Source: Candidatus Aenigmatarchaeota archaeon (GTDB lineage Archaea > Aenigmatarchaeota > Aenigmatarchaeia > GW2011-AR5). Taken from it: DNA of 64,000 nt. The DNA lies in NCBI GenBank assembly GCA_016198685.1, contig JACQID010000006.1:1-64000 (forward strand). Reading direction: 5' to 3'. The notes beneath the pieces were generated by a model. The model saw only the letters and a program-made list of their open reading frames with translations, did not search any database and was not told the origin of the DNA. Below are positions 81 to 9,346 of this stretch, in pieces; the stretch's first letter is position 1; each line of letters opens with the position of its first letter. The position numbers and the translations under genes were made by a program.

Positions 81-623
81 CTAAAATTCGTCATTTTCAT
101 CAGGCGCCCGGGCCTCCCCGCCCTGTATTTTAGGCTCTTCAGGAGCAAAACTCTCCTTATTTTCTGTCGAATCCTTGCGTATTACGCCTATAGTCATTAA
201 ATCGTCAAAATCTTTGCTTATTCGGCGTGTTTTACGTAAAAATGCCTTCATTGAGGATTCTACTTTATCCAAAAGACGATTGGTAGTATTCGCCGTCAAT
301 AAATACCCTTTTGTAAATCCATTACCCATAGGAATCTTGACAAATTCTACAAGCCCCAAAGATCGCCATTTCCTTAGCTCTTCATATGTTTGTGACTGGG
401 AAATCGACAAAATATCAGATATTTTATCCACAGTAAGCGGAATATTGTCTTTTCGGTATTTTAAAAGCTCTAATAAAAGCTTTGAGTGATTTGCACGGCT
501 TTCTTTACGTTTTAGACCCAAACGCTTAACCCATACATCTGCCATGAGTTCAGGAGTTAAACTATCCATATGATCCGGCGGAGAAATCCGCTGAAAAACC
601 ATGTCAGAAAGCTTCTTCTTCAT
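81..623 (-). CDS. winged-helix/HTH-type putative regulator
   Basis: 180 aa ORF; central HTH-like segment (DKISDILSISQSQTYEELRKWRSLGLVEF); overlaps downstream deaminase ORF boundary. Confidence 0.55.
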   Translation of the reverse strand: MKKKLSDMVFQRISPPDHMDSLTPELMADVWVKRLGLKRKESRANHSKLLLELLKYRKDNIPLTVDKISDILSISQSQTYEELRKWRSLGLVEFVKIPMGNGFTKGYLLTANTTNRLLDKVESSMKAFLRKTRRISKDFDDLMTIGVIRKDSTENKESFAPEEPKIQGGEARAPDENDEF

Positions 624-1060
624 ACTCTTATCAACTCCACTCCGGCTTCTTTCAGGAGCCGCGTGCCTAAATCGTCGGGATAATCTTCCTTAGCAACCAC
701 TTTCGTTATTCCCGCATTGATTATCATCTTGGCGCATTGCGTGCACGCCGTAAGGGTAGTATACAAAGTGGCGCCTTCAGTACGCATGCCGTGCCGTGCC
801 GCCTGGACAATTGCATTCTCCTCGGCATGGGAGCAGCTGCATTTATCTAAAGACGTGCCTGATGGCACAGTCGAAGCGCAGCGAACGCAAGATCCTTCAA
901 AGCAATTCTTGATGCCTCGCGGCGTTCCATTATAGCCCGTGGATATAATCTGCTTATCCCTAACTAAAACAGCGCCTATTTGCCTTCGTATGCAGTTAGC
1001 CCGGCCAGCAACCTCTTTTGCTATGTTCATGAAATAGGTATCCCAGTCAGGCCGTTGCAC
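620..1060 (-). CDS. deoxycytidylate (dCMP) deaminase family protein
   Basis: HAEENAIVQAARHG and TACTQCAKMIINAGI zinc/catalytic deaminase motifs; GYNGTPRG. Confidence 0.93.
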   Translation of the reverse strand: MQRPDWDTYFMNIAKEVAGRANCIRRQIGAVLVRDKQIISTGYNGTPRGIKNCFEGSCVRCASTVPSGTSLDKCSCSHAEENAIVQAARHGMRTEGATLYTTLTACTQCAKMIINAGITKVVAKEDYPDDLGTRLLKEAGVELIRV

Positions 1061-2415: not shown

Positions 2416-2730
2416 TTAGACCGGATCGTAACCGCCACCTGTTATGGGATTGCAACGGAGCAGGCGGAACGCGCCCAGCAGCATTCCGATAACCGGGCCC
2501 CTCTTCTTGACGGCCACTTTGGCATATTGCGAGCATGTTGGCATGAATGAGCACATCTTTTTTACGCCGAACTCTTTTTTCAACTGCGGATCTATCTGCT
2601 TTTGATAATAATTTATACTGTCAAGAATGAAACTATCTTTTCTAGGCATACTATGAACGTTGCGAGCCCAGATTACAACTGCGCGACCAAAGCCTCCCGG
2701 ACCGCAGCAACAGTCAACCTGTCCCTTCAT
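2416..2730 (-). CDS. yidD: YidD-family membrane protein insertion efficiency factor
   Basis: [45 protein letters not shown] matches the YidD signature (C-x-x-x-PTCSxY ... LLRCxPxxxGGxDPV). Confidence 0.88.
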
Positions 2731-3804: not shown

Positions 3805-4755
3805 CTAGTCCCTGATACCGTCTTCAGTGACGCTGAATACTGCTTCACCTTCAGGCAAATTAGGAGAATCAATCAGCCGCGCGACTCTCTTAGTCTGTTT
3901 GCTTTTTCTCAGGTACATACGGTATGTCGATGCATGACCGAGTATGTGACCTCCTATTGCAGTTGTAGGATCTCCGAAAAGCATGTCAGGCTTGGCCATG
4001 ACTTGGTTTGTCATGTATACAGCAACGTTGAATGAATCCGCAATTTTTTGCAGCGAATGGAGATGCCTGTTCAATTTCTGCTGTCTTGGCGCAAGTTCGC
4101 CCCTGCCCGTGTAATCAGAACGGAAGTGAGACATCATGGAATCAATGACAATAAGCTTCACGTTTCTTTCTTTTATGATATCACGCGCTTTTTCAACAAG
4201 CACCACTTGGTGATCTGAATTGTAAGCCTTGGCTACGAATATGTTCTTGAGAACTTCTTCGGGCTCGAGGCCCTGCGCCTTTGCAAGCTGCACAATTCTC
4301 TCAGGACGGAATGTGCTTTCCGTATCTATGAATATACAATTGCCACCAAGTCCTCCTTTTTCGACAGGCATCTGCACATTGACAGAAAGTTGGAAACCAA
4401 GCTGCGATTTTCCGGAACCGAAAGCTCCGAATCCTTCTGTTATGGCCTGAGTTTCCACTCCGCCACCTAGCAATGCATTAAGAGAATTACTGCCAGTCGT
4501 TACTTTTCCTATTTCTTTTCTTCGTTCCATCACGTCGGCAGCTGACTTGAATCCCATGTCAAGTTTGTCGCGCGCAGCTTCTATTATTTTTTCAGCAGTC
4601 GCCTGACCTATCTCGCAGGCCGTAACAATTTCTCCTGCCGATGCCGCGGCTATGCTCATGAGATCCTCATATCCCGCTTCCCTAAGTTTCTGCGCTCCCT
4701 TAGGTCCGATGCCCGGCAAATCCTCTATTGAAATCATTTCAGTCATGCGTTTCAC
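3805..4755 (-). CDS. radA: DNA repair and recombination protein RadA
   Basis: N-terminal HhH ([25 protein letters not shown]); Walker [50 protein letters not shown]. Confidence 0.97.
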
Positions 4756-4759
4756 CCTT

Positions 4760-5737
4760 TTACGCCGTGCCCCGAGGCAACAGCCTGTTTATCTCTTCCT
4801 TTATGTCAACGCTCTTCACAGAATTCGTAACGAATTCAAGTCTGTCAAAGAAAGTATTACGCCTCACTTTTCCGGAGAACACGTATTCCCGGCCGAGTTC
4901 CGCTTTTTCATAGACATGCTTTAAGTCCCTCTTCATATCGAAGATTCTCTTCGCTTCGTTCTTCGTCATTCCAAGAACGAATTCCGCCTGCTCGTTAAAC
5001 AGGACGACGCGTATGCTTTCTGTGCCGTCGTCTATTATTCCTGTGAGAACTATGTTGTGTTCCGGCGAGACTTCTCCGTGCTCTTCACACTTGAAGCCGT
5101 TCGCTTCCTTCAGGCTGGCCCTGCATTGCGGGCATACCGGATAAAACATATTGGAATTGAAAAGCTGCATAAGACAGGCACGAACTTCTCTTCTATATCC
5201 TTCCTGCAGATCTTTTATCGAAGATCTTTCAATTTGAGCTGTTGGCTCTTCTGCAACGTCTATTTTTTCCGAGCTTCTCTGCAGAAGACCATATTTGCCT
5301 ATGCGAAGTTCGGCATAACCATCATATCCTTCTCTTGAAAATCCCTTGAAATGGATAACATCCCCGATCTTGGTTTGTTCAAGAACTTGCAATTCCTCAT
5401 TCCACAAACTGAGCCTTACCGAACCTGTGTGATCGGCAATAATAATGTTAACAACTTTTCCTTCTGCCTTATCGGTTTTGAATTCTTTGACAGGGAAAAT
5501 CTTTGTTATTTTCCCTACGACATCGACATTCTTCATCCCCGGCACGATGCTGCCGATGTAGAGTCGCTCTTTTTTCTTAAGAAGCTGAACGCCAAGTTCC
5601 TTGGCCACTATGTATACTGCTCCTTCTTCGGATATAAGACCCGAAAGTTCTTCTTGCTTTTCCTGAACACGGGCCTTTATTTCGCTTTCATTAAGGCCTG
5701 AATCTGCGGCAATCTTGGTTATCATTTCGCTTATCAT
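4760..5737 (-). CDS. replication factor A / single-stranded DNA-binding protein (OB folds, zinc finger)
   Basis: 325 aa; OB-fold segments ([45 protein letters not shown]) and CPxC...CxxH zinc-binding segment; next to radA. Confidence 0.9.
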
Positions 5738-5801: not shown

Positions 5802-6056
5802 TCAGATTATTTCCTTCTCGGATATTATCACGAAGTCGCCCACGGACTTCACTGCCGAGAAAGGCACAAGCGTCCTGCTTCCTTCATCCCTTTCGAGATT
5901 GAGTTCAGAGGAGTGTCTTGTGGGCTCAACCATTACTATGCTAAGAAGTTCTCCGGATTCGGCCACGAAGTTTAAGTCGCCGACTACGCCGAATTTTCTG
6001 CCGGTTTCTTCGGAAACTATGACTTTGCCGATGAGATCTCTTCCTCTTGTAGCCAT
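5802..6056 (-). CDS. PRC-barrel domain protein
   Basis: 84 aa; DLIGKVIVSEETGRKFGVVGDLNFVAESGELLSIVV-type PRC-barrel pattern. Confidence 0.8.
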   Translation of the reverse strand: MATRGRDLIGKVIVSEETGRKFGVVGDLNFVAESGELLSIVMVEPTRHSSELNLERDEGSRTLVPFSAVKSVGDFVIISEKEII

Positions 6057-6172: not shown

Positions 6173-7336
6173 TCAGGCCTTGACTACAAGCGTCTTGAGC
6201 TTCGCTGCCAGATGGTAAACGAAAGCCCTGTCTTTTCTTGTTCTTTCTACCATCTTATCGGCCATCATCCTGATCAATATGTTGTTGACGCTCCTTACAG
6301 CGTGCTGACGGGTCTTGTATTTCTCAAGTGGCAGGCGGTTCGCTATGTCGCCTGGAGATGCGGGACCGGTAGCAAGGACTTCTATGACGTCTCTCTGCAT
6401 AGGTGTTAGGGCTTCTATTGCGCTCACAGAAATGCTCTTCTCCTCTTCCTTGCGGGCCGAGACCATATCAACCGTAATCGTAGGGCGGCCCTGGCGTGCT
6501 GCAGCATTGATAAGTTCTGTGCAAACACGTAGCACTTCCCTTGGAAATCCGCCGGTCTTCTCGTATATAGCATCTATTGCGTCTTGATCAAACGGAGCAT
6601 GCCCCTTGCCGCCGACGCTCTCTATACGCATGGTTATCATCTGCTGCATCTCGTGCTTCGTGAGAGCAAGCACTTCAATTCTTGTGACTATTCTTTTCCT
6701 TAGTGTTTCCAGTTTATCGCGTATCTTCGATTCAAAGACAGGTAAACCGGATAATATTATAGTCATGTTTTCTATCTGGTCACTAAGTACCCTAATCCAT
6801 TCAAGCATCTCCAGTTCAGCTTCATGAGCCTCGTCAAGGAAGAATATGAGATGCTTGCCCCGTAATTTCTTGTTCATGAAATCGGGTATTTGGTACGGAT
6901 TTTTTATGTTAGGTATAAAGAGCCTCAGGAACCATGGTGCGCCGTATTTGTTGTTGAAAATATCCAGTAGTTCCTGCGTATTGGCAGGCGGTTTTCCTGT
7001 ATATAGAACTTCAAAATTTTTAGGAACATTCATAGCTGACCATTTTAATAGAGTGGTTTTACCAGATCCTGTCGGGCCTGTCACCAAAGAAATATTATGC
7101 TTTTCTTCTATCGCTGAAAGAAGCGCAGCTTTCTGATCACCGTATCCAACATAGAGATCGGGTTTTATACTGAATGTAAAAGGGCTCTGAAACCAGCCAT
7201 TTTCGGTTATCCACTCTTTCACTCTTTTGGGCCAGCCTATGGAGCTATTTTTGCCCTCTAAAGAGGGGTTTTCGGAGCCTTTTTCCTGTGTAAAAGGAGC
7301 TTCGGGAACCGGTATATCTTCCTCAGGCGGGGCCAT
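6173..7336 (-). CDS. AAA+ ATPase with C-terminal winged helix (ORC/Cdc6- or AAA_22-like)
   Basis: Walker A GPTGSGKT, Walker B LIFFLDEAHE, sensor-1-like IILSGLP, C-terminal wHTH (LTPMQRDVIEVLATGPASPGDIANRLPLEK); next to a repeat field. Confidence 0.8.
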   Translation of the reverse strand: MAPPEEDIPVPEAPFTQEKGSENPSLEGKNSSIGWPKRVKEWITENGWFQSPFTFSIKPDLYVGYGDQKAALLSAIEEKHNISLVTGPTGSGKTTLLKWSAMNVPKNFEVLYTGKPPANTQELLDIFNNKYGAPWFLRLFIPNIKNPYQIPDFMNKKLRGKHLIFFLDEAHEAELEMLEWIRVLSDQIENMTIILSGLPVFESKIRDKLETLRKRIVTRIEVLALTKHEMQQMITMRIESVGGKGHAPFDQDAIDAIYEKTGGFPREVLRVCTELINAAARQGRPTITVDMVSARKEEEKSISVSAIEALTPMQRDVIEVLATGPASPGDIANRLPLEKYKTRQHAVRSVNNILIRMMADKMVERTRKDRAFVYHLAAKLKTLVVKA

Positions 7337-7350
7337 CTATTCATATCTGC

Positions 7351-7624
7351 TTCACGGCTTAAAAAGATTTAGGTAGTGAAGTTCACGGGATCTTCACGCG
7401 ATTTTTGCTTTGTTCACGCATCTATTCACGGATTTTTTAATATTTTTCGTGAAGTTCACGTTTTTTGGCATTATGAATTCATGTGAAGATCTGTGAACTT
7501 CACGTGAAACAAGATCTTCACGAAGGTATTCACGTGAAGCCCGTGAAGGTCTTGTGAAGGGTTCGTGAAGCTTGCGTGAATAGTTGGTGAAGTATATGTG
7601 AAGAGTTGTTGAATAGTTAGTGAA
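7351..7624. repeat. iteron-like cluster 1 of GTGAA/TTCAC pentamers, including TTCACGTGAA palindromes
   Basis: 22 occurrences counted by eye in about 275 bp, e.g. GTGAACTTCACGTGAAAC and TATTCACGTGAAG. Confidence 0.95.
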
Positions 7625-7814
7625 GCTCAATGAAAGCGTATGGGATTTTATTATGATTTGTGACTTACTATTCCGGTTTTTGAGAGGAATATCATCAGTT
7701 TGTGAGCTTTTTTATGTATTTTTCTGACCTAATGGGGCCTATTGTGAGGGAAGAATATGAAACTTAAATATCTTCTCAAAAATGTGTGAGTTTGTCCAAA
7801 GACGTTCATATAAC

Positions 7815-7935
7815 TTCACGTGAACTTCACGGCGTATTCACGGATCTTCACAGATGTTCACGGACTTTCACGTGAACTTCATAACATATCTATGAAGTTC
7901 ACGTGAACTTCACGAAGCCACCCGTGAATATTCAC
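7815..7935. repeat. iteron-like cluster 2, including a 20-bp perfect palindrome TGAAGTTCACGTGAACTTCA (7893-7912)
   Basis: 13 GTGAA/TTCAC occurrences counted by eye in about 120 bp; three TTCACGTGAA cores. Confidence 0.95.
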
Positions 7936-8061
7936 AGACACGTGAGTAAAATGTGAGTATTTTGTGAGTTTTAGAAAACTAACATATTTTAATTTTTCTG
8001 TCTTTATGGCAAAAAACCTTATATTTAGACGATTGGAAATATTTTAGGCTATTTTTAGCCT

Positions 8062-8370
8062 TTAATTGCTCTGTGCATTGCTCAAAATCTTTAACATTTT
8101 TAGAATTTCGCCTATGCTACGACCTTCCGCTATCTTCTGAAGTACATACGGCTTTAAACGGATCACTCGAAGCATCGGACGGCTTCCACTGCCAAGGCTT
8201 GTCTCCTCCAAAAGAGGTTCCAGTATGCCACCTATGTAAGTTCCGACCGTAGTTGCAGACAATCCCGTATCTCTGGATAGCTGCCTTAGCCACAATCCGT
8301 CAGGATTTCTCGCAAGAGCAGATATTATACTAGATATCTTCTTGCCATCAAACCCTTTCTTTCTGCCCAT
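8062..8370 (-). CDS. small winged-helix/HTH protein
   Basis: 102 aa; ALARNPDGLWLRQLSRDTGLSATTVGTYI HTH pattern; located inside the repeat-rich zone. Confidence 0.65.
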   Translation of the reverse strand: MGRKKGFDGKKISSIISALARNPDGLWLRQLSRDTGLSATTVGTYIGGILEPLLEETSLGSGSRPMLRVIRLKPYVLQKIAEGRSIGEILKMLKILSNAQSN

Positions 8371-9049: not shown

Positions 9050-9168
9050 TGCGGCTTTTTGTCGCAGTCGACTTGGATGAAAAGATAAAAGAAGAACTGG
9101 CAGTTCATGACATCCCTCATGCGACGATTGCCCCTCAAGCAAACCGGATTCTAGGCTCCTTGACATAA
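9049..9168 (+). pseudogene. truncated ThpR-like N-terminal fragment
   Basis: ATGA overlap with upstream ORF; translates MRLFVAVDLDEKIKEELAVHDIPHATIAPQANRILGSLT*; only a ThpR-like N-terminus survives. Confidence 0.55.
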
Positions 9169-9169
9169 C

Positions 9170-9346
9170 TTCACGGTATAAGAATGCTTCATTCGGAGTC
9201 ATGCATGTGAAATCCGTGAAGCTCAAAAACTCGATTATTGGTCTGGCGGACCCGTATATTCTGGCATAGCATCCTTTGACTTGGCATAACTTCACAAAGG
9301 CTTCACAAAACCTTCACATGAATTCATTTGTTTCACGGCTGTGAAT
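9170..9346. repeat. iteron-like cluster 3 of GTGAA/TTCAC pentamers
   Basis: 8 occurrences counted by eye; ATAACTTCAC is shared with cluster 2. Confidence 0.85.

Follow-up and report, generated by a model that had tools for sequence, protein, structure and literature searches.

Short phased repeats form the plasmid partition sites of R1 (parC/ParR) and R388 (StbA), and the ATPases MuB and TnsC assemble into filaments on DNA in an ATP-dependent manner. Archaeal replication origins depend on their co-located cdc6 genes, and Haloarcula oriC2 has an ORB-rich negative element (PMC3936714). In the archaeal SegAB system, scattered copies of TCTAGASTCTAGA are recognised by the ribbon-helix-helix protein SegB (PMC12284271). 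The locus described here lies in a window of 64,000 nucleotides (the whole stretch of DNA analysed) from a Candidatus Aenigmatarchaeota archaeon, and it resembles each of these systems in some respects and differs from each in others.

Like an archaeal orc1/cdc6 origin, the locus has a gene for an ORC-like AAA+ protein with a winged helix and, immediately upstream, what appear to be that protein's own cognate repeats; in the home family, inverted arrays also flank an AT-rich gap. Unlike such origins, it carries GTGAA rather than ORB repeats, in dozens of copies phased at 10.5 bp, its protein is not Orc1/Cdc6 by sequence, and a true Orc1/ORB locus coexists with it. Plasmid partition sites share with it direct repeats of about 11 bp, forming two clusters upstream of the gene for an autoregulated NTPase or adaptor, but the module described here uses an AAA+ protein instead of ParM or ParA, is chromosomal and archaeal, and contains many inverted pairs, with up to 42 half-sites per kb. 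As in SegAB (PMC12284271), site-specific binding is predicted upstream of the cassette's own genes, whereas the half-site is 5 bp long, the sites form one dense field, and no SegA gene lies beside it. By sequence, the AAA+ core is closest to ATPases of the ExeA/TniB/MuB/TnsC type (TIGR03015, phrog_296); in contrast to these, the protein adds a predicted sequence-specific winged helix and a cognate field, and is encoded by a single-copy chromosomal gene with no adjoining transposase seen.

We define "half-sites" as exact occurrences of GTGAA or its complement TTCAC. An exact count over positions 7351 to 7935 gave 35 (17 GTGAA and 18 TTCAC starts), divided between two clusters just as an earlier note on this DNA had reported. 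That note expected about one copy per ~600 bp by chance, in agreement with the average of 1.08 per 600 bp measured outside the field over 555 kb of this genome. On the same scale the field peaks at 35, followed by clusters of 9 (at 9161) and 7, so that similar density at unrelated loci was not seen. Simulations with a first-order Markov model of the region's own composition averaged 2.25 half-sites and never exceeded 9 in 5000 runs, against the 35 observed, and chance or base composition was rejected as the source of the field. A generic genome-wide repeat was also rejected: the density is confined to the field, and the palindrome TTCACGTGAA, in which half-sites had been described as joined, occurs five times in the field and just three times elsewhere in the 935-kb genome. 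The 20-bp perfect palindrome reported previously is present as well. The cluster at 9161 includes a tandem GTGAAGGTTTTGTGAAGCCTTTGTGAA and may be a satellite of the larger field.

Table 1. Features of the field and its surroundings (window coordinates)
Feature	Position	Strand or direction	Remarks
dCMP-deaminase-like (ComEB-like) protein	620-1060		Ordinary neighbour
YidD-type membrane insertion factor	2416-2730		Ordinary neighbour
RadA	3805-4755	-	Conserved neighbour
RPA	4760-5737	-	Conserved neighbour
PRC-barrel protein	5802-6056	-	Downstream of AAA+ gene, same strand; neighbour in most loci
AAA+ ATPase, 387 aa, Pfam AAA_22	6173-7336	-	C-terminal winged helix, recognition helix KTRQHAVRSVNN; proposed field binder
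AAA+ promoter at field edge	7351-7369	-	TATA-like AATCTTTTTAAGCC (7356-7369), then GTGAA (7351-7355), then ATG
Left cluster	7351-7624		22 GTGAA/TTCAC half-sites
Direct GTGAA array, end of left cluster	7534-7624	Towards gap	Mostly 11-bp spacing
Gap	7625-7814		190 bp, GTGAA absent; variant GTGAG at 7702, 7744, 7786
Right cluster	7815-7935		13 half-sites
TTCAC array, start of right cluster	7815, 7826, 7837, 7847, 7857, 7867	Towards gap	
TTCACGTGAA palindromes	7499-7508, 7529-7538, 7815-7824, 7867-7876, 7898-7907		Five copies
Perfect 20-bp palindrome TGAAGTTCACGTGAACTTCA	7893-7912		
Outer edge	7942-7968	+	Three GTGAG at 7942, 7953, 7964 (11-bp spacing); conserved in congener G001
HTH protein, 102 aa, without clear family match	8062-8370	-	Far side of field; possible second binding partner
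Minor satellite GTGAA/TTCAC cluster	9161-9345		9 per 600 bp, next intergenic stretch

The spacing of half-sites was analysed for 1,416 sites at 68 loci. Same-strand spacings peak at 11, 21-22, 31-33, 42 and 52 bp, offsets from TTCAC to GTGAA at 5, 16, 26, 36, 46 and 57, and offsets from GTGAA to TTCAC at 6, 17, 28, 38, 48 and 58, the troughs between these peaks being almost empty. When each GTGAA is placed relative to another GTGAA, 1354 are in phase and 16 out of phase; the secondary variant ATGAA is also in phase. The field in the window keeps the 10.5-bp phase over its full length (Rayleigh R 0.77 and 0.68), and so combines the multiple copies and helical phasing that characterise iteron-type sites. 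Because of this phasing the half-sites share one face of B-DNA, the arrangement to be expected if the subunits of a protein line up next to one another on the double helix.

Comparison of the window with its congener indicates that the half-sites are under selection, which is strong at distant sites too. Half-sites are 96% identical, versus 64% for the bases between them, and third codon positions of the AAA+ gene are 57.5% identical. The congener retains 29 of the 35 half-sites intact, compared with 82 of 311 non-site 5-mers, a contrast that the aligner may slightly inflate by favouring the motif. The block of TATA-like element and GTGAA at the AAA+ promoter is invariant between the two genomes.

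The adjoining gene had been read as an AAA+ ATPase with a C-terminal winged helix, and both Pfam (AAA_22) and the predicted structure bear this out. The best NCBIfam match of the protein is TIGR03015 (ExeA-like), below the family cut-off, and its best PHROGs match is a DNA transposition protein (phrog_296); against TIGR02928 (Orc1/Cdc6) it scores 16.7 bits, where the cut-off is 181.3. The AF2 model (pLDDT 83.7) has the AAA+ core and C-terminal winged helix of the Orc1/Cdc6 fold, and among PDB structures it is most similar to Aeropyrum ORC2 and further ORC/Cdc6 proteins, at a TM score of about 0.5. Judged from these profile scores and the model, the protein is an ExeA/TniB/MuB-type core joined to a winged helix, with an ORC-like architecture but not Orc1 by descent as measured. 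The recognition-helix residues KSRQHAVRSVNN are near-invariant among field-bearing orthologues, and distant AAA+ paralogues that have no dense upstream field also lack them. Such paralogues (L200-L205, L207), which have a different winged helix and no GTGAA field, are scattered over several genomes. As to the other neighbours, the earlier note was right about RadA and RPA but not about a histone: none was found among the neighbours tested, and the gene beside the AAA+ gene encodes a PRC-barrel protein.

The pairing of field and AAA+ gene is conserved throughout the phylum, whose members compared here are known from metagenome-assembled genomes. An AAA+ orthologue is present in 53 of 60 relatives, and a GTGAA field lies upstream of it in every order-level relative examined and also in class-level relatives (~39% identity). 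We surveyed enrichment at 80 named loci, almost all of them carrying the label Aenigmatarchaeota, by ranking 512 5-mers in the 76 with enough upstream sequence. GTGAA is the top enriched 5-mer at 35 of these 76 loci and among the top three at 64, with protein identities as low as 37%. Of 59 genomes, 36 contain the tandem pattern GTGAAN5-6GTGAAN5-6GTGAA, which, by inspection of coordinates, mostly adjoins the AAA+ gene; the reversed pattern, used as a control, has no match in the 59 genomes. The field and the AAA+ gene are thus a real, conserved cis-trans module, and no published description of it was found in the open-access literature that was searched. A mobile or viral source was rejected, as viral contigs gave one short match and plasmids only distant relatives of the AAA+ protein.

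Loci differ in their number of half-sites, the richest having 42 per kb and the poorest a handful. In families f13 and f8 the AAA+ gene persists with few sites left, around its promoter, and some lineages have 2-6 sites and no gap. Inward-pointing arrays around a gap of 80-190 bp are typical of the home family and its nearest order-level relative and are not general. The repeat-poor stretch between the clusters, which had been proposed as an unwinding element, does lack GTGAA in the window but contains three GTGAG variants. Its AT content is 66% (96.8th percentile of 190-bp windows of contig 1), and across loci the AT fraction is only 0.658 in the gap versus 0.623 in the flanks. An unwinding gap was rejected as a general feature of the architecture, the inward layout not being conserved outside the home family. 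One single-contig genome, G118, appears to have two AAA+ modules, at 255-265 kb (L194) and 458-467 kb (L199), each accompanied by its own GTGAA field and by PRC-barrel, RadA and RPA genes, which would reflect either duplication or an assembly chimera. The genome G093 has no detectable AAA+ orthologue, yet on its contig 17 (L206) bears small GTGAA/TTCAC clusters and palindromes near orc1, at about 2000-2250 and 7024.

The field is distinct from the canonical origin. No ORB-type repeats occur in it and no orc1/cdc6 gene lies directly beside it; the true orc1 is 58 kb away on the same contig (65677-66789, contig coordinates), preceded by the ORB-like repeats GGAAATAAGGGGG, GGAAATGAAGGGG and GAAACGGGGG, which are conserved in relatives. 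The region upstream of orc1 reaches 73% AT (99.8th percentile). At 65190-65600 of contig 1 of this genome, outside the window, these repeats are part of a canonical-looking Orc1 origin, with a TAACAATGTTA inverted element in an AT-rich stretch that relatives have kept. In f11 genomes, 340 bp separate the AAA+ gene from orc1, and the two elements remain distinct, orc1 being directly preceded by ORB and the AAA+ gene by the GTGAA field. The two genes are nonetheless close: in the 41 genomes where they share a contig they lie a median of 15 kb apart, and in 39 of these less than 60 kb, the exceptions being G131 and G145 (290-380 kb). In genomes with a completeness of 85% or more, the AAA+ gene and the main Orc1 occur together in 55, are both missing from 16 and occur singly in 3, a co-occurrence whose nominal P of 4e-13 is uncorrected for phylogeny, most of the genomes with neither belonging to family f20. 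Families f20, f21, f26, f27 and f29 have neither gene, and any Orc1-type match in them is divergent, at about 200-270 bits or less; replication initiation may differ in these families from that in other lineages.

The explanation we favour, though we rate it a little short of an even chance, is that the field is an AAA+-coated, autoregulated, origin-proximal complex, most likely a partition (centromere-like) site. The field would be the DNA half, and the AAA+ protein the other half, of a normally single-copy chromosomal module. The C-terminal winged helix would recognise GTGAA, and the AAA+ domain would drive neighbouring subunits to line up at 10.5-bp intervals along a single face of the DNA; that the protein binds the field and oligomerises on it is quite probable. 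ATP turnover would then build or remodel a long nucleoprotein assembly that spans some 600 bp. This complex would also cover the promoter of its own AAA+ gene: GTGAA persists directly after the TATA-like box even in minimal-field loci, which suggests autorepression. Finally, after replication it would mark the origin region and handle it, in place of ParA/parS.

A partition-type job seems most likely because the field lies near the Orc1/ORB origin and is yet distinct from it, and we propose this role only tentatively. Like a partition site, the field is a repeat array beside the gene of a putative DNA-binding NTPase or adaptor, includes that gene's promoter, and is origin-proximal except in G131 and G145. 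The NTPase is of the AAA+ (AAA_22) kind and not ParA, ParM, TubZ or SegA; ParA-type AAA_31 matches of at least 130 bits were found in only 8 of 148 genomes, which favours a system that works in place of ParA. The small number of sites in f13 and f8, and the distance of the AAA+ gene from orc1 in G131 and G145, count against the favoured explanation.

The main rival, which we consider unlikely, is a second replication origin or accessory element at which an Orc-like AAA+ initiator would melt the AT-rich gap or aid MCM loading. An initiator gene with adjacent repeats is the build of an archaeal origin (PMC3936714), and the ORC-like predicted fold and the home family's inward arrays around an AT-rich gap would also fit one. 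The earlier note had proposed an origin or segregation site with non-ORB iterons; the repeats are real, non-ORB and tied to the AAA+ gene, but that gene's product is not Orc1/Cdc6 by sequence. As a main origin the field is weakened because a conserved Orc1/ORB locus exists, a finding the note had itself named as contrary to its proposal, and because f11 genomes keep the two elements separate. For a second origin, too, the conserved canonical locus is unfavourable, as are the restriction of the inward layout to the home family and the lineages with 2-6 sites and no gap. Cumulative GC skew, sampled in six genomes (G000 contig 1, G005, G050, G118, G131 and G145), is weak or contradictory, and the predicted inflection was not reproducibly found in them. 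A local minimum in G118 at 464 kb lies beside its second AAA+ copy (462 kb), and the skew of that genome reverses near 190 kb (P 0.03), at a distance of 60-70 kb from AAA+/orc1. The raw minimum of G131, at 321-323 kb, is beside its AAA+ gene (329.6 kb) but shifts after coding-strand correction to 597 kb, nearer orc1 (623 kb), and neither is significant; in G145, G050 and G005 (part of which reads N) the skew is flat.

Improbable, in our estimation, is that the field is only an elaborate operator for repression of the AAA+ gene and its neighbours, whether by the AAA+ protein itself or by the 102-aa HTH protein. The edge of the field does include the promoter, and GTGAA directly follows the TATA-like box in minimal-field lineages as elsewhere. 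Up to 42 half-sites in 1 kb, reaching 500-1000 bp from the promoter, nevertheless exceed the needs of repression, and the distant sites keep a constant helical phase and remain under strong selection; pure autoregulation is unlikely to explain a field of this size. We give little credence to a titration or timing device for Orc1-dependent initiation, with a role like that of the negative element, rich in ORBs, found at Haloarcula oriC2. Haloarchaea do have separate regulators that are rich in repeats (PMC3936714), and the field is origin-proximal and co-inherited with the main Orc1, but nothing suggests that the AAA+ protein touches Orc1, and titration would act on the AAA+ protein and not on Orc1 because the half-site is unrelated to ORB. 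A three-component layout in which the HTH protein is the binder and the AAA+ protein the motor, though compatible with the other readings and in keeping with the HTH gene on the opposite side of the field throughout the order and in f11, f16 and f18, is just as improbable as titration, since many field-bearing loci have no detectable adjoining HTH gene while the AAA+ gene is always present, and it is the AAA+ winged helix that tracks the field.

Extended to the phylum, the partition-like complex that we favour could represent an undescribed, ParA-free partition machine of DPANN archaea, in which an AAA+ protein with an ORC fold and an ExeA/MuB-like sequence polymerises on an origin-adjacent centromere of phased GTGAA sites; this is possible, and more doubtful than the partition role itself. 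The module bears on how DPANN archaea segregate their chromosomes and on whether they have initiators besides Orc1. A dense, regular, phylum-wide cis element with an adjoining probable partner offers a directly testable entry point, and the system is simple: one protein, one motif and one locus per genome.
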